From: Neckera pumila
Taxonomy: Eukaryota; Streptophyta; Bryopsida; Hypnales; Neckeraceae
Assembly: GCA_963969595.1 (NCBI GenBank)
Contig: OZ018410.1
Location: 32,678,913-32,742,912, forward strand
Length of the DNA stretch: 64,000 nucleotides
Reading direction: 5' to 3'
Numbering within the stretch: position 1 is the stretch's first letter; the number at the start of each line of letters is the position of its first letter. The translations under genes and the position numbers were made by a program. Below the pieces are notes generated by a model that saw nothing but the letters and a program-made list of their open reading frames with translations, ran no database searches and was not told where the DNA came from. Below are positions 13,231-54,800 of this stretch, one piece after another.

Positions 13231-14200
13231 CCCCTAAAAGCCCATTGTCCCTTCAGGGGACAAATGTGTTTTCAGGCAGTTACAGGCTGAAGTTTTCTCT
13301 TGATTTTTTGAAAATTTTCTAGAAGGTAGAAAAACTGATTAGCTTCACGGGAATATAATTTTTTTCACAATTGGTGCCCGGGAACAAAAGTTATGACCAA
13401 ATAACCTCAAAACAGGGGACAGCGGGCAGCAAAAAAAATTTGCACTTTTGTTTTGTTTTTGTTTTTAGTATTTTTTCTCATATGTTATATTTTCTTCTAT
13501 CTAAAAAGCTTTGATTCATTTCATTTGGATTTGTTATGAGAAAGTTATGGACATTCTTGTTTTTCGGGCAGTTAGAGTATTCTTTTGAAAAAAATAACTT
13601 GTAGGATTCATTTCTGAATGCAATTTTTCAATTTTTTCAATTTTCTTTATTTGCATGGTTAACTTTACTTGCTAAAACAATCTGACCACTGGGATTAGTG
13701 CATTTTAATTCCATCTAAAATATATGAATATTTTAGATTTTCCTTCTATCTCGTACCTATAGTGACTGACGAAATTGAGTACTTTTGTGAAACATTTTCA
13801 TTCAAACAACCATACCATAAGCATCAATGGATAAAACCCAAAAGTGTACACATGAAAGTTGTAGAGCACAACATACAACACATTACCATGGAAGTTTGAA
13901 GAAAAAATTAGTTGTAATTTGAAAGAAAATTAATTCCAAAGTTTGCTATGTCAAAAACTCAGTTTTGTTCAACATAGTTTGGCTTTACTTTATCTTTTGT
14001 CAATTTTTTCTTAAAACTCCTAAAAAACTTTTTGTACCTTAGCATGTTGGTATACATCAATTTTGATTGTTGTATACAAAAATTGAAGGAAATTCACATT
14101 TATAGAGTTAAAAATATTAACAATTTAACAAACATGCAAATGATGTTGGTTCTCACAAAATTTGAGTTTTTTTGTGGAATTGAGAGCATGGGTTTTCATT
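13227..14200 (+). mobile_element. TTAA-ended element family C, left end abutting family B
   Basis: A new left terminus, TTAACCCCTAAAAGCCCATT, starts at the very TTAA that ends the family B copy. Internal sequence (for example AAAAGCTTTGATTCATTTCA near 13510) is distantly like family A. I did not find a convincing matching right end; a candidate decayed end lies near 14195-14230. The right coordinate is therefore approximate. Confidence 0.5.
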
Positions 14201-19000: not shown

Positions 19001-21984
19001 AGTACGGTAACAAGGATACTAAACCTCTTCAAGTAGCACCACTGCGTAAGCAAAAACTGATAGAAACTCTATATTATAAAAATCCAAAACACCTACTTGT
19101 GATTGTTCTAGCAGAGAATTGGTGGATTGTAGCTTCTCAACAATCTTCTGTTGTTCAAGTTGCTGATCAGTGCGTGCCCGCAACTCAAGCATTAACTTGC
19201 GTAAGTCAATCGATTCTTGTCGCATCTGTCCAGCAACAAGATCATTCAGAATGAGTAATACTGACTCAAGGAAAAGAACTACGAAATAGAACATACATGT
19301 CACAAAAGGATACTCATAAATAGGTAGGTACTTCAACCATATAAAAGGATAACAAACTTTAAATTCGAGCAGCACAAATAAAAAAGACTTCGGAAGCTTT
19401 GAAGAAGTAAACAAAGGTACCAATAGAGAGAAGCAATCATACCCTACGTTGTTGGACGCTTGAAAGATGTTTGGACAATGTTCTAAAAGTTACTATACTC
19501 AACCTACTACACTGACACTGATTTGTCCTATTAGTGTGTGTTACGAAATAAACTTACATGTGTTGAAGAGTCTTCACAAATACCATTGGTAAGAATATTC
19601 CTCTCATTTCGCAACAAACACTACTAGGACAAATCAGTGTAGCTTTCAAAGTGGATTTTTCTACATTTAGCTTGGGCACAATCAACCGCTACCAGAAGTG
19701 AGTGACAGCTCTACCTGAGCAATGGTACCAGCGGAGGCTTCCAAATTTCGCTTGAAAGCTGTAGCTGTATTCATATCTACTGCGCTAGTTGTGACCCAAA
19801 GCCTCTCACGGTCTTCTTTAAGCAAGGCTTGCTCCATGGCGGCGCTTTCTTTGGCTTGGCGCTCCCAATCAGCAGCAGGCAATCTCATAGAGGTAAGAGC
19901 CACAGCCATTCCACCGCTAGATTCAACGTCATTCTGAGGATTGTATTGAAATCCACCTTGCGAACTATCTCTCTGCTGAGAATTAACACTAGAGATGTCG
20001 AGTCCTTGAAATTTATCTAACACCAGGGAGGACTGTTCCTGCTGCGCCTCAGCCCGAGAAGGGGCAAGCCTCTGCAACTTCTCTAACACTTGGCGCTTCC
20101 GATCAGCTTTATCCAATTCTTGCCTATCACTGGAATAAACGTTGCCAGATTCATTATTCTTTACATCAGACGTTTGGCCTTGGGTGCCTGTTGTGACCCC
20201 CAAACCGGGAAAGTCCGCCTCTTGACTAAGTATAAGTTCTGGGTATTCATTATCGTCACTCGGTCCGTCAGAGACCTGTTTTGAGGCATTAAAAAGATTT
20301 TCAGGGCTATTTCCAGAAGTTTCCTGCTTGGCTTTACCAGGAAGATGGAAACTAATAGATTTCACATCATCCGCAGTTCCTTTCCTTGTGTCTAAAGATC
20401 CAACCTTTTGCCAAGCATTACCTATAGCTGGAGTAAATATCTTAGGCTTTCCCCAGGCGTCCCCCTCACTCTCTCCGGCTTTCTTCCATCCTTTCACTGA
20501 AACTCCAGCTTTTTGTTGGTAAGAGACAGTGCTAATTGAGATAGACTTATTAGGGCCTTGCATATTTTTCGTGAAAAGTGCTACCAAATGATCTTTCTGA
20601 GAGATTGTCAACTCAAAAGTAAACTTCACCTCAGCAAAGTAATTATCCAAAATAGCTTCTTTGAAAACTGATTCTGGAAGTGGACTACAACTTTGTCGAA
20701 TCTTGAATTTAACCTGCCATCAGGAAAAAAAGGTGGTCACTTATATAATCGAAAAGCTCCTGGAGCAGTCTCACAGATACAAACACTACAAAGATTACTA
20801 AGAGAATAAAAGGTGCATCACGTATTAATTAATATGCTTAAGGTTCAGTAGCAGCTTGAAGAGGTCACATTCGTCTCTACAAAAAAGTCGCAATAACTAC
20901 AAACTGAAGAGAGAGACTTTAGCCAATCAGACCGAAACTCACGACTCTGTTGGAAAAGTTCTCGACATGAAACATTTGGGCTGAAGAGGATACCTTCACA
21001 TCAATGACCACTATATCTCCTACAATACACAGCACAGTAAAAAAAGGTTGGAGGAAACAATCACCTGAGCTGGAAAATTGGTTTTGCCTTTACCCTCAGT
21101 CCAGGCACTGGGATCTATGTTGAGAGCACCCTCTCCAACCGCCTCATAGATTCCATGAAGTAAGCGTCCAGAGTAATTGAACAAGAATAAGCACATTCCA
21201 GGTCGAATATGTTGCACATACTTAATATGCTGCATAGGCAACCCTGCAAACAAAAGTACGATAAACACCTAAGCAGACTTAAATCTTAATTTCTAATTAA
21301 TTCAATAGACAAACAATTCTAGAGTAAGTCACGTATTCATGAGTTATTAGAACGACATAAAGCAAAGAACTCTCAAAACAGTCCAAAACTAACTACATTT
21401 TAAGCCCTAAAGCACAAAAAGATTAATAATAATGAAAAGACCAAAGCAATTAGTTACATTATGAAAATATATAATTTCAGATGGGGATAATTTTCTATCA
21501 GCAGAATCAGCAAAGAACATGCATATGACGGTCAGAAATATTCAAAATTAGACTAAAGATAGCCCCTATATGAGCAAGTCAAATTGGGCGGGTTTAGGAT
21601 CATCATAATGATCCTAACCGAAACAATTGCTCGGGTAACTAAAACAGGCTAAGCATTAAGGATCATACTGATGTTATAAAACATCTCAAGCACAGAACCC
21701 TCAAGCCAGTCGAAACTAACCCAAGCCACAACACTGTTTCCAGCCATTGAGGTTGCCCACTACTAATTCTTGTAGAAATCTTAAACCCTAGAAATGAGAG
21801 AAGGGTTACCGAAGAGACTCTTGGTCAAGCATTCGTTCATGGTGACATGAGTGCACCCAAAGATGACACCTCCCAGTTCCGATTTCCCCAACATCCGCTG
21901 CGGTGGGGGGCCCAGAGCTGCACCTCCACTCGGTCCAGCGCTTGCAGGAGTGAGGAACGTTTGGGTTTGCCTCCCCGCCCCCAT
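16005..21984 (-). CDS. DCD-domain / coiled-coil / kelch-repeat protein, 11 exons, 839 aa
   Basis: Exons (5' to 3'): 21984-21810, 21243-21065, 20713-19715, 19225-19097, 18828-18462, 18330-18131, 17825-17749, 17594-17493, 17352-17268, 16858-16742, 16094-16005. Every junction has GT and AG and all phases agree. The start MGAGRQTQTF matches the N-terminus I know from plant DCD-kelch proteins (Arabidopsis AT5G01660 type), and an in-frame TGA lies upstream. Residues ~35-165 are a DCD domain (GGVIFGCT, YVQHIRPGMCLFLFNY, LHGIYEA, NIDPSAW, FPAQV). A long acidic/Ser-rich linker lies in exon 3. A coiled coil (~452-540) precedes about six kelch repeats with GG and Y/W signatures, for example IYALGGG and IYALGGFDG. 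DCD proteins are linked to stress, hormone and cell-death responses; the molecular role of this subgroup is unknown. The acceptor of exon 10 has an alternative about 40 bases upstream. No lesions are seen. Confidence 0.92.
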
Positions 21985-26006: not shown

Positions 26007-28263
26007 TTTTTTTTTTTTTTTTTTTTGAACAAATGGGAGACCCATAGCATTAAAAAAAAAACCCACCAAGTACAAAACGGCTAAGCCAGAAGGCTGGACA
26101 ATGAAGAGAGAATGAGCAAAAAAACAGGAAAGAAAATAGAGAAAGACTACGCAAAAAGGCAAGGAAGGGGGCCCTCCTTAATTCAACTAATCTGATTGCC
26201 AAAACGAGTAGCAAGCACTAGAGATTGCACCCAAACTAAGTCGAAACTGAGCCAAATGGACTCAGATTGAAGCGGTCAAAGCTTGGCAGTACTATGCGCC
26301 TTAAGGAAAGCAGCCCGCCCAGAATCAAGAAGTGCATTCCAAAGGGCCTGTTGAATGAAGTCTGGAAGCCACTAGATTTGTGAGAACACCTCATTGTTGC
26401 GAGCAATCCATAACAGCCACAGGAATGAACCTCAAAGGAGAAACCAAATAACTTTGATGTTGTGGAACCTTCGGGGGAGCGTCGATTCAAAATTGCATTG
26501 GATAGGTCTAAAGCGGGAATGTGGTCCCATCACTGGTTGAGTGCCACAAATGTGATGGATGATGGATTGTGCATACTTCCATATAACTTGGGGTCTTCGA
26601 CACTCATAAAATGTATGTATGGGAGTTTTGTCCATATCCGTTGAGCAGCAATTTCATCTAATGTCAATATCGGGATTAATACAAATTTGCCAAGAATAGA
26701 CTGCAACGGCATTATGGTACACATGCCACATGAAAGCTGCTTCTTTTTGAGATTGGATTTTGTGCCAGACTTCCTTCCAATTGGGTGAGAATGAGGGATG
26801 AAGTGTACCTTCCCATTTTAAGGGAATGTTGCGTTTAAGTTGGCAATGTTTCGTCAGTAGCTGTCGTCCATTAGTAGTTGAATAAGACCAAATGGGCTTG
26901 CTAGAGCTCTAATGCCATCTACTAGGATCGAAGGTTAGTGTCTGAGTTGCGCCATAGTAGAACAGGTCTGGGCCTCCAGTATGATTCTTCTGAATCTCCA
27001 GAATCCTTACACGTCGGATGAAGCCCCCATAAGTATCAACCTTGAAGGAGATTAGGAGAGGGGATAGTCTTTGTGAGACGGCTCCAATAGTTGCTCTAAC
27101 TATGTGGCTAGGTAAAGTAAGGTACTGGAAGTTAGGCCTTAGTATCCCAAGGTCGGCGCCCTTATATTGCCACGATATTAGTGGTATTGGGTTTTCTAGT
27201 CTAGCAAAGATTCCGAACCACTCTCCATCTTGAGTAAGGTTGTATTGTCTAGTAAGCATTACCATCCAAGCATTGGGTATATTGGCTATAAGAAAAGTCC
27301 ATTTGAGTCACTTGTTGTCTTGTAGTAAGAATGATGTCAAGACCTCTTCCCACGGTTTGAAGTCACAAGTCCTTGTGTTCCAAAGGTCTGCGATAGTTCT
27401 CAAGCCGTTCCTTGCTAATTCTTTGGCTCTATCTATTGAAAAGTTGAAGTTAGATCCTATGTAGGTGGTGGACCACCAAAGGCTGGTGGTGAGCACTTTG
27501 CTTGAATTAGAAGGTGGAGAAGGCTCAATGTAAACAGAAAGTCTCCTCCATGCCGCCGTAACTCTATTCCAGATTTTGGAACCACGAGTAACCGATGGAT
27601 TTTTAACCATGAGCCAAGCTTCCAATGGAAACCAGTAGCCACATCTTGGATTAGACTTCATTTTATGAATCCTATATCTAAGAAGAGTCTTCAAGCTTGA
27701 TATGCCAGGTTCAATTGCATATACTATCCACTTGGCTAATAAGGCCGAAAGGGAAATCTCGAGGTCAAGAAGCTTGAGTCCACCAATCTCTTTGGGCAAG
27801 CAACAGTCATCCCAACTAACTCTAATACGGGATGTGTGTTCTGTCCTGCTCCATAGGTAATTACGGAGATTCCCTCAAATTGACCAAATAGCTTGGAGTG
27901 AACCGCTCCAAATGGCAATGAAGTAATATAGTGTAGATAATAAGATGACATTGACCTCTGTAGCACAGCCTGCAAGGGAGAGTCGTTGGGTAGTCCAGTA
28001 GGTCAGTTTCTTGGTTATCTTTTGTTGAAGAAAGCCATCTACATTTGATGTTTCTAATGTAATTCCAAACGGGGCGCCTAATGGTTTTGAGAAGGAATCA
28101 GGTGGAGCCCAGGTTAAGCCAAAATGATTTGACTATGCTGGTAAAAGTGTCTTTGAAAACCTATAAGCAACACTCTTGGTCCAGTTAATGATCAGTCCAG
28201 AGGCAGATCCAAAACATTGTAGAAGGGTGATGGTATTTCATAAGTCCTCTTGCTGTCCTCTAG
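26007..28263 (-). mobile_element. LINE (non-LTR retrotransposon), 3' half with poly(A) tail
   Basis: On the minus strand this encodes the reverse transcriptase from just after the YxDD motif to the C-terminus. Landmarks in order are QQEDL, LLQCFGSASGLIINWTKS, GCATEVNVILLSTLYYF, CLPKEIGGLKLLDLEISLSA, a long connector, and a zf-RVT-like end (HTFYECRRPQVIWKYAQ). A 20-base T run at 26007-26026 on the plus strand is the poly(A) tail. Only a few stops and small frame breaks interrupt the frame. The 5' half lies at 44570-46050 on the same strand; the two halves were separated by the transposon at 28264-44569. Family features fit a plant L1-type LINE. Confidence 0.9.
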
Positions 28264-28277
28264 GGTAGTTGCATGAA
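28258..28277. repeat. Left target duplication and terminal inverted repeat of the giant transposon
   Basis: CTCTAG (28258-28263) is the target duplication. It is followed by the terminal sequence GGTAGTTGCATGAA (28264-28277), which matches the inverted right terminus GGTGATTGCATGAA at 12 of 14 positions. Confidence 0.85.
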
Positions 28278-29807
28278 TGACTTCATGTTTTTGTTCCGTT
28301 TTGGCTGAAATTGGCATTCTGGCGGACAATACTCGGCAGTACTAGGAGTACTATCTGTACTACCTGTCAAAATAGGGACACAATTCTAACCGTCGATGGC
28401 AATACAGATCTTCTGCGCTTTGGACAAGTGTCGCATGGTGGTGGCTCGTGGAATAAATGTGGCCGTCATTCAAGGCTGTGGAAACTGACATGTCTGCAGG
28501 ATGTGAACACGTGTCATGCGGCTGTAGCTTTGCCATTCGAACAATTGGATGGGGCGGGAGTCGTTGAAGGCACAATGATATTCATTGACTTCTGGAGGGA
28601 AGGATTCAATCGCCGACTTTCATCCGGCCTTCTTCACTTCGTCTCTCTTGAATTGCTCAATGTTGTTGTCGTTGAAGTGGGGAGACTAGGGTTTCGGACA
28701 TTGGAGAGGTTTGCAGTGTTGAGCGTGAGAGGGCATGGTCTGTAGTTTCTTGACACGCGGTTGATTGTTGGAAGATCTTGCACTTCATGCTTGAGTGCGC
28801 GCGCGTGGCAATGTAGTTCCACTATGGGACGACAGCACAGTGATATGGGTAGAAGCGCTCTTACTATCGTGGGTTAGGGCTTAGGCTTTCCTTGCTTCAG
28901 AGTTCAGGACTGAGGGCGGTAGGGCGGGTGCGGCGTTGGAGGAAGGGACGTGCTTCATGGAGTAAGGGAGGGCAGACCTTTCAGGCGTCGACGACGCTGG
29001 AGCTGTGGTCGCCCGCGCTGTGAGAGAGTGACTTCGAAGGACAAGGCATTAGGTAAGTTCTGCCAAACTTCTCTCCCTTTTTTGGGGGGATTTCCTTCTT
29101 GGCCAGATAGGTACATGTTTAGATGCACAAAGGAATGGCCTTCCCGTGCAACTGTTAGTGGTAGAAGGTTCAACAACACCCCATGTGGTGGTCTTTTGAG
29201 TTCGTTCTGTCGTTTTACCCTTCCTCAGAGGCGTAACCGCACCTAGTCAGCTTCGAAGAGCTTGTATGTTGTCATGTGGTGATGTAGCGCCGTCGAGATT
29301 GTCCATTGTTTTTCCTGTTTTAGTGTTTCCACCCAATGTTAGTCTGGAGGTCGACCAACTGCAGGTCTGTTGTACGCCGTGGTGACACTGTTTTCGAGCA
29401 TAGTGTTGTTGTGAGTGGGAAGACTGGACGACAATGTAGGACTTCAGAACTACTATGCAAAGGTCCCTTGTTGTGCTCTTGAACGAAAAGTGCTTCTTAG
29501 TTATTTTGTAAGTTAGGATTTTCAGTGCATACATGATGCACAAAGTACTAAGAAGTACTAGGGGTAGGTCCGCTGCAGTACTACTTAGTACTTTCAATCC
29601 TACTGCCACTGCCATTCCATAGTCACTCAACCTTCATTATTCCTCACATGTCAGCGGTTTTGGTAACCTACAGTGATTACAATTTTCCTCTATTTTTTTA
29701 ATTGTTCATGCAATTCATAGTGACATGGTTCTCCTCTGCCAATCATGTCAGCCGCTCATGTCTTGCTTGTCATTTGAAAGATAGACAGAAGCAACGAAGG
29801 ATTTGAT
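28278..29807. other. Left subterminal region of the giant transposon
   Basis: I see no convincing coding exon. AGTACT motifs cluster at 28338-28352 and again around 29547-29594. A strong donor-like site (TTAG|GTAAGT near 29051) on the plus strand, before the SET gene, could end a 5' untranslated exon, which would make this region its promoter and leader. Antisense frames here are unsupported. Confidence 0.45.
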
Positions 29808-32800
29808 ATGGGAAAAATGAAGAGAACTCCAATCCGGCAACAACTAGCTGTGGAAGAAGTGCTGTCGAAGGATGAGAGATCAGATGATAGCGGAGAGTCG
29901 GAGGAAGCCATTGTATATGCAAAAAAGAAACTTCCAAAGAAAGATGCTACAGTGAAGGCGAAGTCAACTACACTGCCTCCATCAAAATCAGGTCATGCAG
30001 GCGAGAAGAGGAAAAGACAGTCTGGGCAGTCTACGGTCTCGGCTGTCACTGCTCGGACCACTTCCACGAAGGACAAGGCCACTGCTCCGAGAAGGAAGAA
30101 GGTCACCTTTGTGGCACGTAGCAACAGCACTTCTTCAGGCTCATCAGATGGTGATCAGGGTGCTCCCGGTGGTCAGGCAGAGGGCAAAGAAGATGTGCAC
30201 AGCAAGGACAATGTTGTCATCACAAGGGCGACTGCTGCACCTGCACGGAGAACCAAGAAAAGAGAGGAGGACTACTCCGAATATGACTGCCGCAAGGAGT
30301 TGGCGTCATTGGCCGCCAACAACAAAAGGCCCCCTCCAGCAATGACTTCCACACATTTTGCATCAGCATTTGGCCTTCACAATGAAGGAACAAACACCCA
30401 CAAATTGAAGATTGGAAAGAACATCACCTTAGAGGAGGTAGAAGATGTTTTTGGTCCAGAGAAATCCAGAAATGGGTTCTCTCTGATTGAGAAACTGTCT
30501 CAATCTCACTTGAAAGAGGTAGAGGAACTTTATTGCAAGTGCTACCAGAAGACGCAGCCATCCACTCTTGTGGCAAAGGAGTTCGCCCTTGGATTCGTTC
30601 TGGAGAAGGTGAAAGAAGAGAAGGTCAATTGGGCGGAGTTTGCAGCAGAGACAAATTCACTCCAGCGAAAGTCCTACTGCAGAAGACTGAAGGCCTGCAT
30701 GCAGCGATTGGCCAAAGTCCTTGACGTGCCAGTACGTGATCTTTACGCTACAAAGGGGTTGATGGAGTATGCGGATGGTGTTGGTGAGAAAGTTCAAGTG
30801 CTAGACGTGTCTGCAGGAGTGACTACAGAGGGCGCAGCAACTGCCGATAAGAAGCCTTCTTTTTTCCTACGACATGATGCCAACACCCACAGTGAGGAGG
30901 TCACAACCAGGTACTACTCTCTCCTGATTTTGACTTCTCTCCTATGAAGCATGCGTGCGCACCACTTGTGAGCAGAGAGTTTGCGTTGTACCTATAAATG
31001 AAATGACATGCCTGTTTCTTGTACAGAACATTTCCTCTTAGTTGTACGTAAGCATCGCTAGCAGTACTGTCCAGTAGGGAATTCAGTAAAACGAGTGCGT
31101 AAAAATTTAGTGGATGTTGCCTACTTGCTGCATGTTTAGTCGCCGGTACTTTGCCCAGTACTTTTAGCATGCACGTACTCCTGGTGCTCACATTTGCAGT
31201 CACTGCTGGTCTGCACTGGTACACTGTGTAGTAAGTGCTTCAAATTGTCATGTGTACAATATAGAGCAGTAACAGTAGAGTAGAATAACTTTAGTGCGGG
31301 TCTTCATAGCAAATATGCCCTCTCCTTGTCAGTACTCCCTTGTCCGTTGTGGTACACGACGCAGCCACTGTAGTGCACGACATGCTCAAATAATGCTAAA
31401 ATGGACCTTCACATTACGACATATACAGGCTCCATGTCCTTCGCCAACTACATCGTAGCACTTCCATTCTTCCTCAGTACTGACCTTCACCCTTACGCAC
31501 TGCTCTTCTGTAGCCGATTCAGTCCTTCAGTGCACTAGGAGTACACTAGGCCGCAGTAGCCGTTCTGAACATTGTACTTGAAGTACTTGTGGTGTGTCCT
31601 TTCATGTACTTGTCCAGTCCTCCAGAGTACCACAAGTACGCGGTCGCGGATTCCCAATTGTCATGCACCCTATACACTTTTCTCCTGGTCTGCACTTATA
31701 TGTTAATGTCACCTGGCAAACGTGTTTGTACTATTCTTCTATCGTTGTGGTCAATGAAGAGTCCTATGGTCTTCTGTCATTGTGCTCATTCTGTGTGCCA
31801 TGTCTTTGTTATGCAGAAAAGGGAAAATAATAGAACTTGTCCACATGGTGGAGGCTGAGGTGGAGCGCTTATAGCAGGAAGTGAACAACGTCAAGGCCAA
31901 GGCTGCTCAAGCTGCTGTGCAGTGGGAGGCTTCCTTCTACCTTGTGGAGCAGTTCAAGTCATTGTTGACGGAGGTGGGAGAGGATTGCAGCATTGTCCTT
32001 GCTGGAGATGACAGCTGTCCTCCTCCAAATGAAGCAAGCATGGTGCCCATTATGAAGATGTTCTATTCAAATGTCAAGAAATTGTCTACATTCAAAGCAT
32101 CTAAGAATGCATTGGAGAGTCAATTGCGTGAAGCCTCTACTGCATTGAAGGGCAACATCACTAGCCTAGGCACTCTGAAAACATATTTGATGGACCTCAC
32201 TCTAGGGAAGGATACATATGTGATGCATCCTTGGCCATCCAGCAGCAGTGAAGATGTTCTGGTTCCCACTAATGCTGAACCTGTGCTGCCGCCTATTCTG
32301 GAGTATTGCCTTTGCTTCCAAGGTTTCCCACTCTGGGACATCATTCTTTGCCCTTGCACCCATGTTTACCATCCATGGTGTGCATGTCATTGGTTCAGGA
32401 GCACTGTAGAATGTGCTGTGCCCGATTGTGGTCTTGTTCCCCCTACATGGTACAGTAGTTGGGGTTTCGGGCAATATGACAAACTTCGTGCTGGCCATGC
32501 AGACGATGTGCAACAAGGAACTCCCGCGGGTGCAGCCTGGGATACACAAATTTGCGGGTAGCGGAAGGCACTTGTAGGTAATGACAACTTCTAGTCCCTT
32601 CAGTGATGATCACTGCCCTCCAGTTTGCACAGGTGGAAGGCTACTTTCATTTTTGTGATACTCTTTCAATCATTGTGAAGCATGTTAAGAACTATTGTGG
32701 TCTACATTTTGAAACACTATACAAGGCAATAGTATAGTCTGCCCGCAATCGCAACACACAGAGTCCATAGTATCTGCAATTCAAATATTGCAACGGTGTC

Positions 32801-35800
32801 TGACTTGTACTCGGTGCACCATAAACGCATTGTGCACTTTGTTGTCTTCTATTTCATGACATGACAAATTGTCTCCTCCGTGCTCCTGAAGTACTTGTTC
32901 TTGTACCTATCTTCACCACCGTCAGTACGGTGAGCACTATGCATTGCATAAACCATCTTGTAAATACCATTAATACTAATGTAAGCAAGTATGGGTTGTT
33001 CCTCTCACTTCATATGAATTTTTGTTGGTGTTGCTTTGTCTAATTTACTGAATTCCATAGTCATGGCATGACTCACTCCATTGTGTCTTACTTCTGTAGG
33101 TTGCTCTCGAGGACGTGATGGCGCTCCAAGTACATCTGCTACAGATAGCACAGTGTCAAAATGCTTTCCAAAAGGCACCAAGGTCATCATCCCGAAGATC
33201 ATGAAGTTTGGCCATGAAGGATCTAACTTCAGTCCAGCTTGTGTACAGCCAAACATTGATGGCTCCTGTAATGCCTTTGCGTCCCAGCTCCCGACGCCAT
33301 CAACGAATTTCAAGCGGACCTGCACTGACACGTCGCCATTGGACATGTCAGCTACACAGGAGGGCACGCCAAAGACATGTGCAAATGCTGATGTCCTTGG
33401 GAAAAGCAACTACCCTTTCTCCAGCATTGTTAACAACACTGGAGTTCAGTCAACCAGTCTTGTTGTCCACACCGTGAAGAGCAGAGCAAGCACTTGGACA
33501 TGCAAACTCAAGATGAATGCTTCGCGGATGCTGAACCTGTGGAGGATGAGGCCCATGCTATGGATACTGAAAATGCAAGTCCTGAAGTCAATGTTCCGGT
33601 GCCAGTAAGTGCAAATTCAATCATTACTTCTGCTTACTGTTTCCTTCCATTTCAAATTTAGCCCCATGCCCTACGTTGACATCAGATCAAATATTTGATT
33701 TGCCATCACAACGTCAGATGATGCAATTTTTTCATTTCAAGTCCTCGGGGTTCATCCTACGTCCGGTCCTCTTATAAATGTTTTCCTATGAAATGAACAG
33801 GAAACAAATGCATCAGATTGTGAGGAAGACTCGTACGCTATCACGTATGACCGGACATCAAAATGCCCAAAGAAAAATGTGGAAAACAATGCTGTAGTCC
33901 CATCTCCTACATCAGCGACGAAGGTGGTCAGTGTGCCCACCACCTCAACCGCGTGCCTACAACCAACGGGTAAGAAAAGTCAGCAATAAATAGTACTGTC
34001 TGTCAGTACTATGTACTGCTTCGCGTTACGAACATGCTGCCACAAACGACTTGCAGTACTGCAGCAGTACTAGAATGCATTGTGCTGTTATGCTTCATAG
34101 TATTGTCATTACATGTTGCTTCCCTACTCTGTCTTATATAGTAAATGCATGTGCAGTGAACGAAGCAGAGGTCAAGGATGCAGCTGAGGTTGCTTCCCCA
34201 ACTAGAGTCCTTTGAGGTCAACATCATGCAGTAAAAGCAACAGCTCAGATGTCATCACCTACTCGTCATGCTAGTTCAATGAACAGAAATAGTAAGGTGG
34301 GTTCTAAAAAATAAGTTAACTATGCTTCAGTAAGATGACTTTGCCATCAATCCTCCAAAGAGTCTACCTCTGGAATGTTCATGTTCATCTTTGTCAATTG
34401 GACAGTGAATATGTTATTGTATATTGTACTTGGGGCGTATGTAGTGGCCGAGGTCCCACAGGAGTCCCGTGGGACTCAGCCAGTGTCATTGGCCTCCTCC
34501 ACTGCGGTTGCCCCACTATGCTTTCACAGCTACCTCAGGGAATAACCTTCCTTTTCACTTCACGTAGTGCTCCAAGGCCCACCGGACAGTTGTGGGCCTC
34601 CTACAGGAGTCTGTTGACTGGAGGCATGTCGGCCAAAGATTACGGACTGTAACTTGGGGCCGACAGAAGGGGTCCGGAATAGGAACCCGATGATGGAAAC
34701 ACGAGTATCCGTGTTTTCACATGTCAATTTTGGCAAATGGTATGTGGATCCTACCTCATACAACGAGTATTCTGAACTGACCTCCATGGCGGTGCACAAG
34801 AACATGCACGCATATCACCATCTGTACTTTGTTTTCTGTAATGAAAGTATCTGTATCGAACTCCTGTGGACCACTTTGTGTATGATGACCGCATTTGAAC
34901 AAGAAGCTACGGACTCCATTGAGTATGACGTGTCTAAAGCTCTAGAAAGAGTCCCCGTTGGCCTCGACAAGGGCAATGATGGGAAGTCATACGCTGTGCT
35001 GGACAAATTGTACACGTATGTGCGATCCCCTGGAATTCATTCCTCTTTCATAGCGCATGACCTACCTGTGGAGCACCTGTGCATGGCCGAACACTATGCC
35101 ATTGGTAAGCACGGCTGCCTTACCAATGCTGGAGACTGTTGTTGCGACATTGGCAAAACGCAGTGTGCATACATTCGGGGAGGTTTGCTGCATCCGCGAC
35201 TAGTCCTTGAGGTATGTTTTCTTTGGGCCAACCTCATGCTGAAAGTGGGTTTCTTGAGTAATATTCCATTGTACCTTGTGCAAGAAAAATCCACAATGAA
35301 GGGCTACGCACATGCCTAGGAGTTTCCAGTGGCTCCGTGAAGGCATCCTTTAGGCTTAATGACATTTTCTTTTCCGCTGCTGGTTGCCAGAGAGGGCACT
35401 GATTTTTTCCCAAAAAATAGGGAAACACCGGAATTGCATGCTGACATTTAGTGCTGACGTTCCATTCTATTCTGCAAATTCTTGAAAGACGACGCGGTTG
35501 TAGAAGAGGAATTCTATATTGCAATGACTAGCCCCAAACTCTGAGCTCAGAAACGGACAGTGTGATGGACATGTTCCTTTGCTTTACATTTGAGAGTGTG
35601 ACTGCAGCTGTACTTGCCCTCCGTCTTGTTTGAATCGAGTAGTTCAGAAAGGACTCAGTGTGAAGTTGCAGGTGAAAGCAACAGTGTCTTTCTTTTTTCT
35701 TGCACCACTGAGGCACATGAGTTCCATGACTAATCACTGCTGCCCTCCTTTCTTCTTTAGGTGTTTCATGTGAATGACTCCAAAGGTTGGGGAATTTGCA

Positions 35801-36407
35801 GCGTGGAGACTATGCTGCCGGGAACCTTCCTCTTTGAATATGTTGGGGAAGTGGTTACCAACGCTGAGTTGCTGAGAAGAGGAGACCGCACGAAGTTTGT
35901 CCTCGCTCTAGATGTTGACTGGCAGTCCGAGCTTCTGCAGGATGACAGCTGCCTTCACTCCATTGATACATCTGTCATGACCAACGTGGCGAGGTGGTTG
36001 AATCATAGGAAGGGGAATTGAACTGTTACTTTTGAATGTCATGCAGTTGAGAACGTCATTGATAATTGTTTCCCTTATTTATTATTGAGACTTTGTTGTT
36101 GTCTATGACAGATGTGGAGATGCCAATCTAATGGACATGCCCATTTGGGTCGACATGCGAAGTCCAACCCTATATCATGCAAGTGTTCGCATGGTAGTAC
36201 ATTTTCTCTCTTTGTTGACCATTTTATGTGAATCAAGAAAGTCTTATGTACTAATTCCTGTACACGGTTGTCCTACAGGTAGCTTTTTTTGCGAACCGCA
36301 CTATACAAGCTGGGGAGGAGCTGACCTGGGATTATGGCATTGTCTTTGATGAAGAGACACCCGCACTTGTCTGCCACTGTGGTAGCTCGCTCTATAGAGG
36401 AAGATGA
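29808..36407 (+). pseudogene. Transposon-borne coiled-coil / RING-like / SUV-type SET methyltransferase gene, decayed
   Basis: Model exons: 29808-30910, 31817-32577, 33100-33604, 33801-33969, 34142-34296, ~34650-35211, 35597-35671, 35761-36008, 36112-36178, 36279-36407. Phases agree across junctions except for one indel inside exon 3 (about 33440-33500) and the uncertain start of exon 6. The N-terminal ~370 residues are basic/acidic and Ser-rich (nuclear-type), followed by a coiled coil. A Cys/His cluster near 32300-32430 (CLCFQGF, CPCTHVYHPWC, CAVPDCG) is RING-like. Exons 6-10 give a SUV39/SUVR-type module: DVSKALERVPV, a Cys-rich pre-SET ending CPPSCLNRVVQKG, GWGICSVE, FEYVGEVVTNAEL, NHRCGDAN, EELTWDYG and post-SET CHCGSSLYRGR. 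Such domains methylate histone lysines in the nucleus. Lesions: TAG at 31872 and 32559, TGA at 34213, NHSC changed to NHRC, a lost post-SET Cys, and a GA donor after exon 8. Reading it as two genes is possible, but the phase match at 32577/33100 favours one. Confidence 0.75.
36179..36278 (+). other. GC-AG intron in the SET gene
   Basis: The intron starts GCAAGT directly after the codons for SPTLYH and ends CCTACAG before VAFFANR. GCAAGT is the usual context of the rare GC-AG class of U2 introns, and the SET reading frame continues exactly across it. Confidence 0.7.
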
Positions 36408-37068
36408 GTGCCAGCAAAGTTGTGAAGTTCAGATTTCAATTATAAAGTACAGAGAAACCGAAGTAGGCATATACAACTCCATGTACATAGATGTAATGGG
36501 AGGTCCTTCCTTCGGCCCAAACAGTGACATGTCTGTCCATATTGTATTAATGCCATGCACAATTGTGTTCATATTGTGAATTAAAAAAATGAGTGGTCAG
36601 CCTTGCTCCTTTTGTAATAACAACCATGCGTTCATCAAATTTTGTTATGTACTGGCACTGCCTAGTAACTGTGAAATAGTAAGTAGACAGTGTTATTGTA
36701 TAAGAAGGACTGCTTGAGACCACATTTGAAATGAACGACGCAGTCAGTACACGCTAATCCTTACAATTTTCTTCAATTCCTACTACTGTCTTTGCTAAAT
36801 GTTGATAAAGGTGTGCAGAACTAAGTATTTACTAGACTCGAAAGTACTTTGCAGTCCTCGTGAGTACTGCAAAGTACTCTTCATGACTGAGTAGTATGCA
36901 TTGCTTCTGTCATGGTGTTGCACAGCATTGAAGTTAGTACCAGGAATCACTACCACAGGATTACTATTTCTTGAAAGCAATATTGGGCACTGTACTAGTA
37001 GTGGCACTTCATTTTCTCAGGCTAAAACTTTACATGATCAGTAAATCGTCATGTAGTGACAATGGCAG
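36408..37068. other. Convergent 3' region between the two transposon genes
   Basis: This separates the stop codons of the SET gene and the transposase, which face each other. It holds probable 3' UTRs and an AGTACT cluster at about 36840-36890. No gene is seen. Confidence 0.5.
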
Positions 37069-39239
37069 TCATAGGCAATTGAGTGCACTGTGGATGACGT
37101 CCACAGTTTCATTGGGTAAACTGTAGACTCGTTGACCACCTTTAACCCTGTGTTCTCTTGGAATCATCTGAAATTTGCATGCAAGGACTATGCTGGCATC
37201 CACATGCGCAACTTGTGAGTTCGCCAAGTACATGTAATTATGAAGGTCACGTCGACCCCATTTCTGGTAGTAAGTCCCGAAAATGACAAAGTCTCCCGCT
37301 TCAGAGTGCCCTCCTCAAGTGCAATCAAAGCTTTCACGCACAATGGACTTAGGCATTTGGCACTGCAATACATAGAATGAAACCCCCTCATCATTGTCCG
37401 GAGCGGCAGGGACGGCAAAATTATCTCTAGGCTGCACTAAATCAGACATGCCTTCCCTCGTGTAGTCCCACTCCCAAGGGTCCTCTCCATCGCCTTGCAT
37501 GTCCTACAACTGGGAAGAGCTCAAATGTCGGGGTTCAATCTTCAGTACCTTCCAAGGTTTGACATATGCCTTGTTCTCGCAGTCACTGAAATGTTCTTCC
37601 AAGCACGGACCATAGAAGCAAGACAAGTCTCTCACAAAAAGCTTTGTTGGATCATGTTCATCTCCAGCAAAAACGGAGTGGAATGTGGACAAACCTGGTG
37701 TAGGATCACAAGCATGAGGGGTGCTGCGCAAGACATCTTCAATGCCTACATAGTGGAAAATCCTGTATGACCTGACGATGTGAAATACAAATACAAGTAA
37801 AGTATATTTTACCGTGTAAGAGCAGAAGAGATGTTCAAATGCAGAAGGCTTTATTTTTAAAAACAGTGTGCGTAATGCTAACCTAAGAAGGTGGGAACTT
37901 GTACAGAAAGAAAGTGCTTTCATGCTACTTGAGTTGATCACGTCCATTGGAAACTTGGCCATCCAATGACGCATTCAAGAAAGTGACACAGTTCGCTGCA
38001 TTTTGCAGAGTGCGATCAGCATGATGAAGTTGCTCAGAGCGTAGCTTGCGCTTCACCACCACTCTAGCACCATCCCATTCACCTTTTCCATGTCCAGAGC
38101 CAAAGAAATTCCAAACCATTTTACACCCACCAATCAATGATGGGTACCTGCAGTAGTGAAGGAGTGAAAGCCGCATGCACAGTTAGTCATTTGAGGACAG
38201 GAAATGTTAGTTTGCAGTACTGTGAAGTACTGCATGGTAGAATCATTGAAGCTACACGTGTGACACAGTAACTATTACACAGTACATTCAAAATGAAATG
38301 GTTTGAGAGTTAGTTGTGAAAAATATCACCTTGCAGCAAAGTACAGGGCTCTAGCCCCTTTGAATTGGCTTGAGCACCCATTGCTGAAGACGATGTGCGT
38401 ATGAGGTGAGAAGTGATTTGAGGAGAACCACTGCCAATGCTGTTGTAAGCAATGCTGCACAAATAGAGTGTCATGAGTCCTGTCATTGGAGATGTAGTAG
38501 TGAGTTTCTCTTGTAAGGGAAGGTTGTCGTTCACCGTCTATTTCAACAGTGGCAATGTAGTAGGTCACATGAACCAGAATGGTAATTTGAATGGAGTTGT
38601 AATACATCGATTGAATCTCGTTTTGCACCTGAAAGGTGTATTTTTCAGCAAAGTCTATGTGGTTGAGGACCGTTGTCGCGTAGAGAGAGTTTGCCTCGGA
38701 AAATCGCAAAGATTTTGGCTGCAATTTGAAATGGTTTAGGACTAGGGTGTGTAACGATTGCGTCAAATCTTGTACCTCAAACCTTGAATCTTCTACTTAG
38801 AACGTCAAATCTTCAACTTCACCTTGAACCTGCTCCTTGTTGGCCTATCTTGAGGCTGGCTCTAAACGGGTCAGGGTTCAGTTAGGTAGGTGATAAGAAA
38901 CCACAGTCCTCGGACAAGTAAAATGGGACAGCATAACACGAGATGCCGTTCGGAGGATGGGCTCCTAAACTTTCAAACTCCCAGTGACCAGCTTTAAGAA
39001 CCAAGCTTCACCGTGAGAACAAGCAAGTCTCGACCATGTGGGCAATTAACCCCACTTCGTCACCCACGACACAAAATGAGGCTAGCAATGGTGTAAACCA
39101 AGCCGCCCGCAACAACAAAGTTTACAAAGCCACAAGCCACACACACACACACACACAAGTCTTCAATACTTCCTCCAATCTCCAACTTCAACCTCCAATT
39201 CGTAACCTGAACTTTGGGTGAGTGCCTCCAACGCTCTAC

Positions 39240-39910
39240 AGCTTCAAATGAGATGAGTAATAGCTCTTTGGAAAGTTAGCACAAACTCCTACTTCTCCTC
39301 TAAGTTTCAAACAATTCTAAAACTCTGTCCAACATCTATGGAAATCCAAAGTTTCGGCCTTGAAAAATAAGGGCAGCAGACCCTCTTTCACTTATTCACT
39401 CAAAACTCATTCATGCAAACTCCAAATAGAACGAATGATAGCTTCATGAATAGCTAACACAACTTTCTACATTTTCTCCAAATCTCAAATAATTCTAAAA
39501 CTCTGTCCAATATCTATGGCCATCCAAAGTTTCGGCCTTGAGAGAAAAAGGGCAATAGACTCTCCTTCATTTCCACACTCACAACTCACTCATAAGAACT
39601 CCAAATGGAACAAATGATAGCTTTATAGAAAACTAACACAATTTTCTACACTCCCTCCAAATTTCATTGTAAATCAAGAACCTATCCGTCTTTTATGGCT
39701 GATCAAAATCTTTGCCTATTAGTTTCAAAGGCAACAAAACCCTCTCCACTCAAACTAGCACAACTTTTGATTCACAACTCCAAATCAAGAAAATAAGATC
39801 AATTTAAAAAAATACACACCATGATACACAACTTCTCCAAATTTCATTTCAAAACTCTTCAAACTCCCAATACAATAGCCCTCCAAACATTTTGGGCCCT
39901 CTCTAAACTC
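39240..39910. repeat. ~180-bp tandem repeat, about four copies
   Basis: Blocks such as CTCTGTCCAACATCTATGG and CCAAAGTTTCGGCCTTGA recur at a spacing of 178-180 bp (for example 39323, 39501 and a diverged copy at 39681). A fourth, more diverged copy follows. The array lies 3' of the 154-aa ORF on its strand. Confidence 0.75.
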
Positions 39911-40238
39911 ACAATGAGAGAGAAGATCCATAGTGTCCCTTTTTTCCTCACCCTATCTTCATTCTAACCACACAAACAAGTGAGGTCAGCCCCTAACTCA
40001 CTCTCCAAGGCTACAACAACAATAATTGAGCACTCATTTGGCCCACAACTATTTCTTTGTCTTTAACTTAGAAAGAAATTCATTCAAGTTCACCGAGAAA
40101 ACAAACTATTTGAATAATTTCTGCATACTACTTTACAAATACAAAACTAATGCAAGAAATTACTCCAACTATGGAATGAAGAACTCAAACTCAATACACG
40201 TCTAGTAGAGGTAAAAAACTAGAGTTTCAATCAAAATA

Positions 40239-40703
40239 TCACTCCATCTGCAAGAATTTGAGGATGCGTTTGACGGTAGCAGCAACATAATCAGCACGAT
40301 CCGCCTTAGTTAAAGGATTGACTGGTCCTTCCAAGCATCGTTGATGACCACGACTTCCCTCGATAGGCTTGACCATGCAATAATATTGATCTTCGTTCAA
40401 ACCTTCAAAACATCCTTCAAATGTCACTTCACAGCTGCCGGGCTCAACGCATCCAACTTGTGACAAGATCACTAATGCCCGAGCGTCACGCTGAAGATTC
40501 CCATGCCATCGTTTCTCCACAGTCCACACGAGGTTGTCTTGGTGGTCGAGATGGCCCGGCTTCATCTTGTGATTGCTCATGCGGTAATGGAAGACCCAGC
40601 GATAGTTGAGGTTGATCCGGCAATTGCGATAGAGAAATTCAAACTCACGCTCCGGTTGAGATTCTTCATCTTGAGACTCAGAAAAAACCCTCCAGTTCGA
40701 CAT
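40239..40703 (-). CDS. Intact ORF of unknown function, 154 aa
   Basis: The ORF starts MSNWRVFSESQDEE and runs without interruption to a stop at 40239. It is hydrophilic, with Cys residues spaced through the middle (CVEPGSCEV, EGCFEGL, YYCMV, QRCLEG) and a Lys-rich C-terminus (TVKRILKFLQME). I recognise no family and see no signal peptide or membrane segment. It sits within the 2-kb interruption of the transposase, on the same strand. Its intactness contrasts with the stop-laden transposase around it. It may be a gene of a younger nested element or a captured gene; expression is unknown. Confidence 0.5.
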   Translation of the reverse strand: MSNWRVFSESQDEESQPEREFEFLYRNCRINLNYRWVFHYRMSNHKMKPGHLDHQDNLVWTVEKRWHGNLQRDARALVILSQVGCVEPGSCEVTFEGCFEGLNEDQYYCMVKPIEGSRGHQRCLEGPVNPLTKADRADYVAATVKRILKFLQME

Positions 40704-43648
40704 TCTAAACCTAAAGTAGAAAACAACTACCACTTATGGAATTTGATGAAGCGCTTAGGCATATCCGTCTTCTTATATTGATGTCATGCACCTCAACAAG
40801 AAGGTGTCACCTTGAAGCTACTCAATAAAACATATAATATATATTTTTACACTATGTACAAATGTACAACACGATACCGTGCCTTCTTGCAAGCATTGCC
40901 AAAGTATCTTAGCTTGTTCAGTTTGCCCACGAGCTTCAAAATTGTGCCAAATGAAGCGCTGAACAGTTGGTTCGAAGAATTCCAGAACCTCGGAGAACAG
41001 AGTAGTGCGTAGGACCTCCTTGATCCGTTTTTTGGGCCTATCATCTGCTCCGAAGCCAACTACTTCATACTAGAATTGCTTCCAGTTATGGTCAATGTAG
41101 GAACGTCCAACGTTTCATGTGGACAAAGTTTGAAGGAATTGACGCCACACATGCTGCATGTTCCCAGCAGACATTCAAGTCGATGGAATTCTAAGTCATC
41201 CAACTTAGGACATAGCAAGGACTCCCACAATGCCGTGACCCCCACAAAGTGATGGTCACCAGCCTTACAGACACCGTCGTTGCTGTCTCCATAGACAATG
41301 CATTCACAGTTGCATTGCATAAGGAAGTGTGCACCGGTTTGTAGGTGCCTAAATGCATTGAGGGCCTCCAGGAGGAAAAGAACCTGAACATGGTATCGAC
41401 AACAGCACACATTACATTTGTTGCACTTGATGATGAAGTAAGGACGCAAGTAAACAAAAGCTCGTTGCATAATGACACACTCTGGATGAATAGCAACGAA
41501 GCGGTTGTACAATTCCTTCTGCACAGTAATGGTAAAAAAATTTAGTGAAATGGAAGATGGTGAATTATGAAAGATGCATACAAGTAATCGTGTATGAATT
41601 TCACTGTGAAAGCAGGTTCTATGGCGTGCAAAGTGGATACTCGAATTCTTCAACAACAAGTGAATACACATTTGTACTGATCTAGTAAGTATTCCTAGCA
41701 CTCTTGAGTACTAACTAAGACTAACTAGGACTCGAGAGTACTAATGAGTACTAATAAGTACTAGAGGTATACGAAGTACTCATGTCAGTGGTAGACATGT
41801 ACAAAAGTACAGAAGACAGAAGTGAGGACTATACTTATACTACTGAACTTTACGAAGGAAAATGTAGTACACGATTGTCAATGATAGTCTTCACAGTGTA
41901 CTCCGATACCGGCATAATAGTACTATGAATATGTTCTTGCGTCCTAATGTAGTTTTGTAGTAAGATCAGTGCTTACCAATACTAACAATATTGAAAGTGT
42001 GTGCCATTTCAACTGCAGTCATGGTAGTCTTCAATAGCACACAGTAGTGACCAGTGCTTGTATTAGTACAGCACGCCGAACTTTTATGACGACGGGAGTC
42101 AAACCTCCATGAAAAGATGTAACTTCTAATACATTGGGGACGGACGATAAACGTTGAGACGGAATTCTAAGTTTAGTGCCACGGCAATGTACAGATGGTA
42201 CAAAGTGTTCATACAGTTCATTCACAACTGGACTAACAGTATTGCATGACAGAATACGGGAAGCAGATGCTGATACAGAGCAACTGCATACAGTCATACT
42301 TATGCACGTGTTATGCTGCAAGTATGGTTCTTAAACCAGTACGCTGTGAGAAGTTGTACTGGAAATCCGACAGAGTACACCGAAGTGGAATACAACGGCA
42401 CAGGAGCGGCAGCCACCAGTACTGTTCTTCACCTATTCTATGCACATGTAATACTAATGGGCGTTGTTCAGTGCGTTGTTGTACATCGACATTGAAGGAA
42501 CAATGAATCCAATACTGCAATTGCACTCTGTAACGACTTTGCCGTATGTGTGGCAGAATGATAGACATTATCTTCTAAAACGGTCAATGCTGGACATGGA
42601 CAATCTTGGCAGTGGTATTTTGTGGTATGAGGGGTGATCTTCTAAGACATACGCTATACTGACGAAAAAATCTACTTGGGATGCACAAGACATACACCAA
42701 AGTGCTTAGCAAGGAGGGCATATTGGGATACTATGTACTATTGGCATACACGTGACGGACGAAGTGGAGAAACGAGAAGTGCATAAATCGAAACGGCCGT
42801 GGACTTGTACATGCGACATGGCAGACTAAGTGCACGCATGAAAGGACGACTGAGAGGTATGCTTGAGCTTGGGTTTCCAATAGAAGATGAGCCGCATGAG
42901 TGTCGTACAAGTTTCGGCCTAGTTGCTTCCTCCGAATGTCCTTTCGATTTGGACTAACACGGGTCTCCTTGATCCACCAACTCGTCACTGCAGACTTGAC
43001 GGCATCTGGAATTCCTCTTCCACGTTTTCTTCGGCGGGGCACCAATAATCTGTCACCGCTGTTGCTTGAAGTTGAACGCAGGCCCTCAACTGCTCCAGTC
43101 AAGTTGCTCTTGCGCGTACCAAGAATGTGATGAAAACTACTAATGTCGGCATTTGCTTCGGAAACAACAGCTTCAAGAATGGAGCGCTTACGTGCCAATT
43201 TACCAGCGGAATTTGGGATCTTCAGGAGGTCCAGTTGAGCACGAATATTCTTCAAAATTTCTTGCTGCACTTTCACATCTTCTGGACTCGGATAATCAGC
43301 GGGAAGCAGTTCGCGGACCCGGTCGTAACGGAAGACCCTTTTCAAAATCGCAGCACGAAGTCGTGGGCACTCAAGGTCCTCCAGAAGCTCCATTAAGGTG
43401 ACGGAGACTCGGTCCGCATGCCGCTTCACTGTGGTACAAAATGAAGATCAATCACATGGAGGTGCAGTGCCGTCTTCTTTATTTGGACCAACAGCACTCC
43501 GAGAAGCACAACTACGCTGCTGCCGCACTGCATTGCGCCGTCGTTCTTCTTGCTGCCGAACCTCTACTGCAGCTTGTCTTGTACGTGAATCTGCACGTGA
43601 AGGGGTCGGTCATCTTCCATGCAACGCAGACACACTCGTTGTCTGCAT

Positions 43649-44569
43649 TTGAAGAGATTTTAAGAGCGATCATGTAACCACCGCCTGACCTTCAAGTGCA
43701 ACACGATGCTCCAAAGTACCCACTTTCGGACAATGCTACTCCTTGCACAGGCAAACGATTCCCTCATCTTCCCTCTCTCTGAATTGTAGATGACACGCCG
43801 TAGAACCCTAGGCCGCCTGCACGACAACTTCGGCTAATTGAGAATCTACCGTCTATACTATGCCTTGTGCATGACTTGCTGTCAATTAAGGCACAATGAA
43901 ATTGGAGGCGGTGGCGGCTACAGAGATGTCAACATGCCATGTTGACATGGGCCAGGGTCTGTGGGTCCCGCTTTGAGTATTAGGGAGTACTAATTAATAT
44001 CCAGCAATACTAGGCAAATCCAGGGTCCAGTTTTCTACACCAAAAATGATACATTGACATTTTAATTTGTAGTTAATGTACAATACCTTGGAAAAAAAAA
44101 ATGAAAAATGCCATTTCCAGGGACTTCCTTCTGATCACATTCCACTCATTTTATGCAACGAAGACCATCGTCATTGCCCAGAAATTTGCGCGCAACGGAG
44201 CCCTAATCCGACAAGCGTAGAAGACATAAAATAAAGTATTTTCAAGCGCCCCTTTGTAGAGGGGTGCCCTCCTATTGTGGGAAGAAAGTACCAAAAATTC
44301 AAGTCTTAATCTTCTAATTTGGGTACTTCTTAGTACTGAAAACTCCAAAACTCAAAACGTGACAAATTATTGAAATTACGTAGAAAAAAATTTGTAATTT
44401 TCTAGAAATATGAAAAATATGCATCACAATAGTACTAAACAGAGCTACGTTCACCAAAGATTTCATCTTCTAACTCTTCCCTGTGAAAAAGTTACAACAA
44501 GACAACAAGTAATACGTCGACAACACTTTTTGTGACAATGTTTCAGTACTGGTGTTTCATGCAATCACC
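43649..44569. other. Right subterminal region of the giant transposon
   Basis: This contains the probable promoter of the transposase and AGTACT motifs, including one at 44545-44550 only five bases inside the right terminal repeat. No exon is recognised. Confidence 0.5.
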
Positions 44570-44575
44570 CTCTAG
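44556..44575. repeat. Right terminal inverted repeat and target duplication
   Basis: TTCATGCAATCACC (44556-44569) is the inverted match of the left end. It is followed directly by CTCTAG (44570-44575), the second copy of the target duplication. Confidence 0.85.
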
Positions 44576-47034: not shown

Positions 47035-47260
47035 TTTTAACAAAGTAAAGTCAAAGCTTCGCCGTATTCTAGAAAATCTCTAAATTCCTAAACAATTTGA
47101 ACAAAACAAAGTCAAAGCTTCGCCATATTCTAGAAAATCTCCAAACTTCTAAACAATTTGGACAAAGCAAAGTCAAAGCTTTGCCGTATTCTAGAAAATT
47201 TCCAAACTTCTAAACAATTTGGACAAAACAAAGTCAAAGCTTCGCCGTATGCAAAGGCTT
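47035..47260. repeat. 61-bp tandem repeat, about 3.5 copies
   Basis: The unit contains AAAGTCAAAGCTTCGCCGTA, TTCTAGAAAATCT and TAAACAATTTGGACAAA. The TCAAAGCTT word starts at 47051, 47112, 47173 and 47234, a strict 61-bp period. Copies are very similar, which suggests recent expansion. Confidence 0.9.
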
Positions 47261-51807: not shown

Positions 51808-54800
51808 ATGGAAAACATTGTAAATATGGAGGTAGACAATTCAGTGCCTTACAAAGTGCAAGTGTCAATTAGTGGGAAATATCGACTGTTGATTCTCCAT
51901 GACTGCATGATTCACGAGCAGACACTAAAGTCTGAATTTCCAGCAAAAAGAAGAGCTTGTAACACAAATCTTGACTTGTGGTTAGATGGTAATTTATACC
52001 CTGCAAATTTGTCTGGGAAGCGCCCAAAATTTGTAGACATCAGAAGTGTGTTAGAGTTTATTGGAAAGGGGGAGAACAAACTGCTAGGTTACACTAAGAG
52101 TTTATTGAATTTAAGAGATTCGCGTCATTTGCTAAGACAAGGTTCTGTAGAAGTTGACTGGCAAAGTATCAAGGAGTTGAGTTCTTTGATGTTGCAACAA
52201 GGTGATTGCAAGAAAGACCGGTACTGAAACATTTTCACAAAAGCAGTGTCGAAGCTTCCTTTTGCAATAACTTTTGAAGCATGACTTGCATGAGTTTGGG
52301 ATTTTTATTGGAGATTTTTCTTATGAGTTTAATCATATCTCATGTTTTTCAAAAAATTTCAAAAATCATTTTATATTTAAAAATCATGTAAACTAGTATA
52401 TCACGTTTTGAGTTTTAGGGGGTTTTACTATGTAAGGAGTCTACAAATTTAATGATATGGAGCTGAAATTTCTATAGCCTGTTCCCATAGTAGGAAGTCA
52501 TGTTTCTACCAAGGGGCATTAAAAAATATTTTATTTTATATCCTCTATGTCCATGCAAAGAGGGCTCCCTTGCGCACGCAATTCTGAGCATTGAAGATGG
52601 TTTCAACATTGTTTTTTTGGTGAAATCTCATTATCATGAAGTCTTCCCAAATGACATTTTTTAGTATTTTTAAAAATGATTTTCCCTATTTTTTACAAAT
52701 TAAAAGGTCAAAGTATGTATTTTCTTCAAATTTTCAGCTCATCTTTTTTGTGAACAACTTTTGACCTAGATTTTTTTTAGGTCTGAAATTTTAGTGATAT
52801 GCTAATTTTAGTGTCATACTAATATTCCATATTTTTTTTATTTTTAAGAATTTGTATGCAAAAGCTCGTAGTATTGAGAGTACTAGCCAAAATGGAACAA
52901 AAACAAAAGGTCATTCTTGCAACAACCCAACAACAAAGACAGCTTCATATAGTACGTGAATCAGAGAGTGCACTTAGACAAGAATGTAAAGCATATCGAA
53001 GAGAAGTAGAGCAGCTACAAATTGAGATTCTTTTAGTCCAAAATAATTTGAACTCCGTAAAAACTATTCACATCGATGAGTTAGCTGATCTACAAAAGGA
53101 GCTTGACAACAGTATACAAGTGGAGGTCATGCTTGAAACAAACATGGAAACGATGGTAAGAGAGCATGCCAACAAATTCCAAGCATTAGAACAAAGTCAG
53201 GCACTTGAACTTAAAACAGTCAAATTAGAACGTGAGAATGAGTTCAAATCTCTAGCACAGTTGCAAAGAAGATGGGTTGGTTTCAGTCAACACCATACGG
53301 TTTTGGAAAGCAAGTACGAAAGCATAAAGACATTGGCAACTTGTCGCAAAGAAGAGGTCATGCAAAGAGATTGCATACACTTGCTCGTTCAATTGTAGCA
53401 CCAACCACTGTTCGTGACATTCGAGCAAGAAATGCGTTGAACCATACAAATCAACGACTTCATGGCAGTAACCAACAACAAATTGACTCCGGGAAAGTTT
53501 TTGCCAGCATCTTGTCAAAAAATGAAGTTAAATCAATGCTTCAGTCCCCTAACTTAAAACCAATTAGTATAGATGTGACAAACCAATATCTAGATAAGAT
53601 TGGAAAGGCTGTTGGTGTTCCTCAAATTCTTGGAACTTGCGATAGGAGTGGTATAATTCAGGACGGATATGCAGCAATGTATAAGCAATTGAGATATGGT
53701 GCAAAATCAACAGGGCAAGGTTTACATATCGATCTCCCAAAGCCATACCATGTCTCTTTATTTCATAGAGAATTCCATGCCAAGTTACCAGACTATATTG
53801 GAGACTACTACTCTTTGAATTTTGAGGTTCAATTTTTGTCAAAGAAAGGACTGACAAAAAAAGATCATGTTCATGTCAAGCTGACAGAACAAAACTCTTT
53901 TTTTGCTGATATAGAGCAAGTTCAGCGGACCATGGTGCAGCTCTACCAAATTACTCCAACAGGTATGCTTAGTGCTACACCTTCTCACATCAATTTTTCA
54001 AGCCTTTTTCTATACAATTCTTGACTATATCAATAGTTATGATGATCATACTTCAAAATCTTCAATGAATGCACGCCACAATAATTTGAAAAATAATGTG
54101 CTCGAGGTACTATAAAACTTGTACTTTAAGAGATGTAAGCATTGTAGCAATAGACACAGTATAAGCAGTCAACATAACTTCACCTTCCTATGACAAAGAT
54201 TGTCCAATGTGGAAGTTGATTATTGTTCTAGGGATGCAACTAGGATTTTGCAGGAAATTTACTGGAACTGTCTGCATTCAGTTCAGATTTTGGGACCTGT
54301 AAAAGCACATTCAGCAGTATCTATTAGAAACAATTATAAACTTAGTAATAGTTAAAAACTTGAGAACTATTCAATAATGCAATTGAAAAGGGAAGATTCA
54401 CAACAAAAGCCTCATTGAATGAGCAAGAACTTTGTTGCATTATATAATAAATTCATATAATCACCCTCTCCTCTACTTAAATGGAGCAAATTAGAAAGTA
54501 CCTTCAAAAGACTAGTTGAGGACAATGTCTACCACTATTAAATCACCTTACTATTTGAATTGTCTGTTCTAGAGTTGGCAGGAGATCCTCTCAAATTCTG
54601 TATAAAATTAGATGAGGCTGAAATTGTTCATGCACAAAAACTTGAAAGAGTAAGCATAACATTGATGAATAGGGCACTGAACACTGACATCTCAGTAAAG
54701 AGCCCTCAATACATTGCTCTGCAATCCGAAAGGGAAATCTGACCCGTGGGATGCTTTCAAATTCTCAAAGAGACCTATGAAATATTAGCTTGGGTGTTCA

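Follow-up and report, generated by a model that had tools for sequence, protein, structure and literature searches.

Results

The window analysed here, a stretch of 64,000 nucleotides from contig OZ018410.1 of the moss Neckera pumila, contains a large DNA transposon lodged within an older long interspersed nuclear element (LINE). The transposon carries on its minus strand the exons of a predicted transposase, now broken, with an integrase-like core, and on its plus strand a predicted SET methyltransferase gene and a further gene, referred to as gene A; its noncoding parts hold arrays of the short motif AGTACT. Coordinates are listed in Table 1.

The own genome (339.5 Mb, 18 contigs) was searched with the left 100 bases of the element, and the copy counts that follow are lower bounds. 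At least 14 matches were found, seven over 98-101 bases (the window copy included) and seven over 43-44 bases. Five further large copies, 13.5-14.4 kb long, possess both bare ends, i.e. the ends without their outermost base, where the first-pass annotation had drawn them; together with the window copy, these siblings are 92-95% identical to one another over aligned bases. A sixth further large copy, on C9, has both ends, with substitutions at the outermost bases; its identity is 80-92%, depending on the segment. The short relatives, of which seven were scored, one of them in the window itself (52200-52928), measure about 730 bp and resemble the element in their ends.

The end sequences and the copy of CTCTAG on either side of them, described in that annotation, are indeed present, and CTCTAG had been taken as a 6-bp target duplication fixing both ends to the base. 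Duplications were scored in 14 copies, seven large (including those of the window and C9) and seven of about 730 bp; an eighth short locus, L025, with two candidate right ends, was excluded. An exact 4-bp duplication stands outside the family termini GGGT...ACCC in 12 of the 14, with a single mismatch in the other two, and none of 182 mismatched flank pairs used as control was identical over 4 bp. The 6-bp reading fits three copies only, with no match at that length in the remaining 11. The bare left end is preceded by G in all 14 copies, and the bare right end is followed by C in 10, T in three and G in one. The outer G and C are part of the element, the duplication is the 4-bp TCTA and the unit is 28263-44570; because the duplication measures 4 bp and not 6, both ends shift outwards by one base from their earlier placement. 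A duplication length read from a single copy, where the 6-bp match is accidental, puts both ends in the wrong place and suggests superfamilies that do not apply.

The element is large and gene-bearing, as had been proposed, but its 16.3 kb include a later 2.2-kb insertion. The nested segment 38674-40875 is missing from all five aligned siblings and from C9; an intron was rejected as an explanation, since siblings without it indicate an insertion. It begins with TGTCGCG, finishes with ACACGAT, is flanked by a 5-bp duplication and contains a 179-bp tandem repeat. Two further length differences were observed among the copies. C1, C10 and the window copy contain 376 bases (42281-42656) that C3, C5 and C2 lack, a shared insertion or deletion dividing the family in two, and the C9 copy (reverse complement of L027+L019+L020) bears an 8.3-kb insertion at about 6968-15307, in which self-comparison revealed no long terminal direct repeats.

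When the flanks of the element are joined, the reverse transcriptase motifs QYTDDTNI and SGLIINWTKS fall in one frame over the junction, which reads QYTDDTNISARGQQEDL, then one in-frame stop, then SGLIINWTKS. Removal of the transposon was previously said to restore the LINE frame exactly, and this holds for the two motifs; with the stop between them and a frame change further upstream, the interrupted LINE is decayed. The flank matches RVT_1 with E 1.3e-6 and 28.8 bits, slightly below the cut-off of 29.6. The insertion is younger than the LINE in which it sits, as had been suggested.

The minus-strand exons are predicted to encode a transposase in which three D residues, and an E after the third, are invariant in seven of seven relatives. 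Neither the window exons nor two scanned relatives matched a Pfam transposase family, and a scan of viral_contigs with the transposase alignment returned 70 stretches fitting a pattern, none of them a relative. Foldseek against PDB gave no match at E ≤ 0.001, and Rfam gave none at gathering scores.

The product of the plus-strand gene is predicted to be a methyltransferase of the histone H3 lysine 9 (H3K9) type, with pre-SET and SET parts. Its best matches among solved structures are EHMT1 (E 1e-27) and SUV39H2 (6e-27), and nine proteins match at E ≤ 1e-20; the form GEVVTNAELLxR...NVARWLN occurs in six of the eight matches examined, with F for W in the other two, one of them from the alga Closterium. 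Gene A has five homologs at 54-56% identity. No Pfam family exceeded the cut-off in its window exons or in the two of the five homologs scanned, and its structure model (mean predicted local distance difference test score 38.3) was too poor for a structure search. All five siblings and C9 include the SET exons (35594-36404 by window numbering) and gene A in their aligned part.

In a substitution test the majority state of six copies was compared with C9, and the counts were set against pooled noncoding controls with Fisher's test. The value of pN/pS was 0.16 for the SET gene (10 nonsynonymous, 17 synonymous; p 0.002), 0.39 and 0.29 for the gene A exons (p 0.006) and 0.47 for the transposase (p 0.19), with 0.45 and 0.73 in the control stretches. 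By this measure the SET gene and gene A look constrained between copies, and the transposase fails the same test.

The 14.1-kb core contains 32 copies of AGTACT, where a first-order simulation predicts 3.4 (maximum of 100 runs, 12) and the runner-up palindromic 6-mer is present 13 times; a second-order model, which is inflated by the arrays themselves, expects 9.5. The 47.7-kb flanks hold 12, with 10 expected. None of the 32 sites falls within the 4,751 bases predicted as coding in the window copy (p 2e-6 by site, 6e-4 by the 18 clusters), and across six copies one of 46 aligned sites is coding, in one copy only. Exactly 10 bp separate neighbouring sites in six of 31 gaps, and base counts around the sites show AGTACT again 10 bp to either side. 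The siblings have 25-36 sites and C9 has 22. At 36845-36876, where the SET and transposase genes face each other with their 3' ends, a hairpin with perfect arms, TACTTTGCAGT...ACTGCAAAGTA, holds AGTACT.

Elsewhere in the window, a 729-bp non-autonomous relative lies in reverse orientation within an open reading frame region, fragments of host genes with a Kelch motif and a Development and Cell Death domain occupy 18424-20719, and the right flank contains a 61-bp tandem repeat in 3.5 copies (47035-47250). The Development and Cell Death domain is not known outside plants and fits a land plant as the probable host.

Table 1. Features of the element and its surroundings (window positions)
Feature	Position	Strand	Remarks
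Whole element	28263..44570	- (strand of transposase gene)	16,308 bp; ends common to siblings, 4-bp duplications
Target duplication TCTA, left	28259..28262		flank comparison across copies
Target duplication TCTA, right	44571..44574		flank comparison across copies
Left terminal inverted repeat GGGTAGTTGCATGAA	28263..28277	+	15 bp
Right terminal inverted repeat GGGTGATTGCATGAA, read inwards	44556..44570	-	2 mismatches to left repeat
AGTACT cluster, 4 sites	29544..29592
Gene A exon 1	29808..30900	+	3' edge approximate; 5 homologs
Gene A second exon, Cys/His-rich end	31878..32540	+	putative assignment to gene A
AGTACT pair	34055..34071
SET gene, pre-SET exon	35530..35673	+	edges approximate
SET exon	35761..36012	+	Pfam SET E 1.8e-5, above cut-off
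SET exon	36110..36180	+	edges approximate
SET exon, C-terminal part	36279..36404	+	edges approximate
AGTACT cluster, 3 sites	36843..36878		between SET and transposase 3' ends
Last transposase exon	37069..37503	-	in-frame TGA
Transposase exon	37549..37771	-	Cys-rich
Transposase exon	37929..38147	-	HGKGEWDG motif
AGTACT pair	38216..38231		transposase intron
Rest of transposase exon 2, past nested insertion	38330..38673	-	DFAE(N/K)Y and S(D/N)G motifs
Nested insertion in transposase exon	38674..40875		2,202 bp; ACCGT at 38669-38673 and 40876-40880
Transposase exon 2	40876..41518	-	contains frame change
AGTACT cluster, 5 sites	41707..41780		transposase intron
Transposase exon 1	42851..43393	-	edges predicted
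729-bp non-autonomous relative	52200..52928	-	similar ends; TGTT duplicated (plus strand AACA, 52196-52199 and 52929-52932)

Discussion

The window element is interpreted, with a probability of about 0.7, as a decayed copy of a family of large cut-and-paste DNA transposons, most likely Sola, with the SET gene and gene A as working cargo and AGTACT arrays as binding sites. A transposase with a retroviral-integrase-like core would bind the GGGT...ACCC ends, cut the element out and insert it at a target site opened by a break staggered by 4 bp. The SET methyltransferase and the gene A product would change the chromatin of the element, and the noncoding arrays with their 10-bp spacing would serve as binding sites for an element-encoded protein.

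Published accounts describe Sola by a 4-bp duplication, inverted repeats of 11-1124 bp and a DDD-triad transposase (PMC10741241), and both the duplication and the 15-bp repeats reported here fall within this description. Sola1 of Physcomitrella, itself a moss, and the giant Sola-1 of Ectocarpus likewise have 4-bp duplications and short inverted repeats and can exceed 10-15 kb, and Sola2 of amoebae also carries a cargo, Fanzor1; the SET and gene A cargo and the AGTACT arrays are absent from the descriptions compared. The length of the duplication, the inverted repeats, the size of the element and its host group all agree with these published features, and the element is accordingly a probable member of Sola. 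The lack of Pfam transposase matches and the GGGT...ACCC termini would also suit a separate, unnamed superfamily of different ancestry that shares the 4-bp duplication; the agreement in duplication, repeat length, size range and occurrence in a moss makes this unlikely. Next to nothing remains of the earlier reading as a 6-bp-duplication element, drawn from CTCTAG on both sides of the window copy and matched in three of 14 copies, since the other 11 contradict it. Among the candidates of that kind, IS3EU/GingerRoot elements are DNA transposons with fungal members carrying the epigenetic enzyme TET/JBP, but they are described as duplicating 6 bp and ending in TA..TA (or TG..CA), and they were rejected together with Polinton/Maverick (6 bp) and Dada (6-7 bp; PMC3706591).

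The cargo could instead consist of passive captures or host-gene fragments without a role, its substitution patterns being due to chance. Host genes are frequently captured by transposons, the counts for the SET gene are small and one control stretch stands at 0.45; in addition, the smaller control by itself (20 to 14) would soften the SET contrast. Such an origin is nevertheless judged improbable, if still deserving of some weight, given the retention of SET exons and gene A in every aligned large copy, the contrast of both with the pooled controls and the existence of gene A homologs elsewhere. SET cargo on DNA transposons is already known, HarbingerS and MuDR elements of Phytophthora having reportedly acquired a SET histone methyltransferase gene (PMC12730594), in different superfamilies and different hosts. 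No SET-carrying Sola element and no transposon AGTACT arrays were found in the titles and abstract openings among the literature matches listed, which for AGTACT were 10 of 795.

As regards the arrays, the chances are about even that they are sites for the transposase or a host factor, unrelated to silencing. Subterminal repeats bind the transposase in other families, and AGTACT is also found close to both ends (28338, 28347 and 44545); on the other side, the majority of sites are intronic or intergenic and remote from the ends, and the seven scored short relatives have merely 0-2 sites each. The arrays recall the VANC targets of Arabidopsis, namely those of VANDAL21, a MuDR element whose additional protein VANC21 is described as binding YAGTATTAY in noncoding parts, often in tandem repeats (PMC5735166). 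AGTACT at 10-bp steps is likewise a tandem short motif of the AGTA type in noncoding parts; the two motifs differ, and the likeness is one of motif layout.

Conclusions

A more far-reaching proposal, tentative and on balance doubtful, is that a Sola-like family has assembled its own chromatin kit, namely an H3K9-type methyltransferase, an accessory protein from gene A, and arrays of (AGTACTNNNN)n on which that protein would act, which by analogy would amount to a VANDAL/VANC-like, sequence-specific anti-silencing system separately arisen in another superfamily. Should the SET gene and gene A be working cargo, the family would allow a test of how a plant transposon confronts silencing by histone marks, and VANC-like motif arrays would be extended to another superfamily. 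The SET gene and the AGTACT motif may help this family to cope with the silencing machinery of its plant host.
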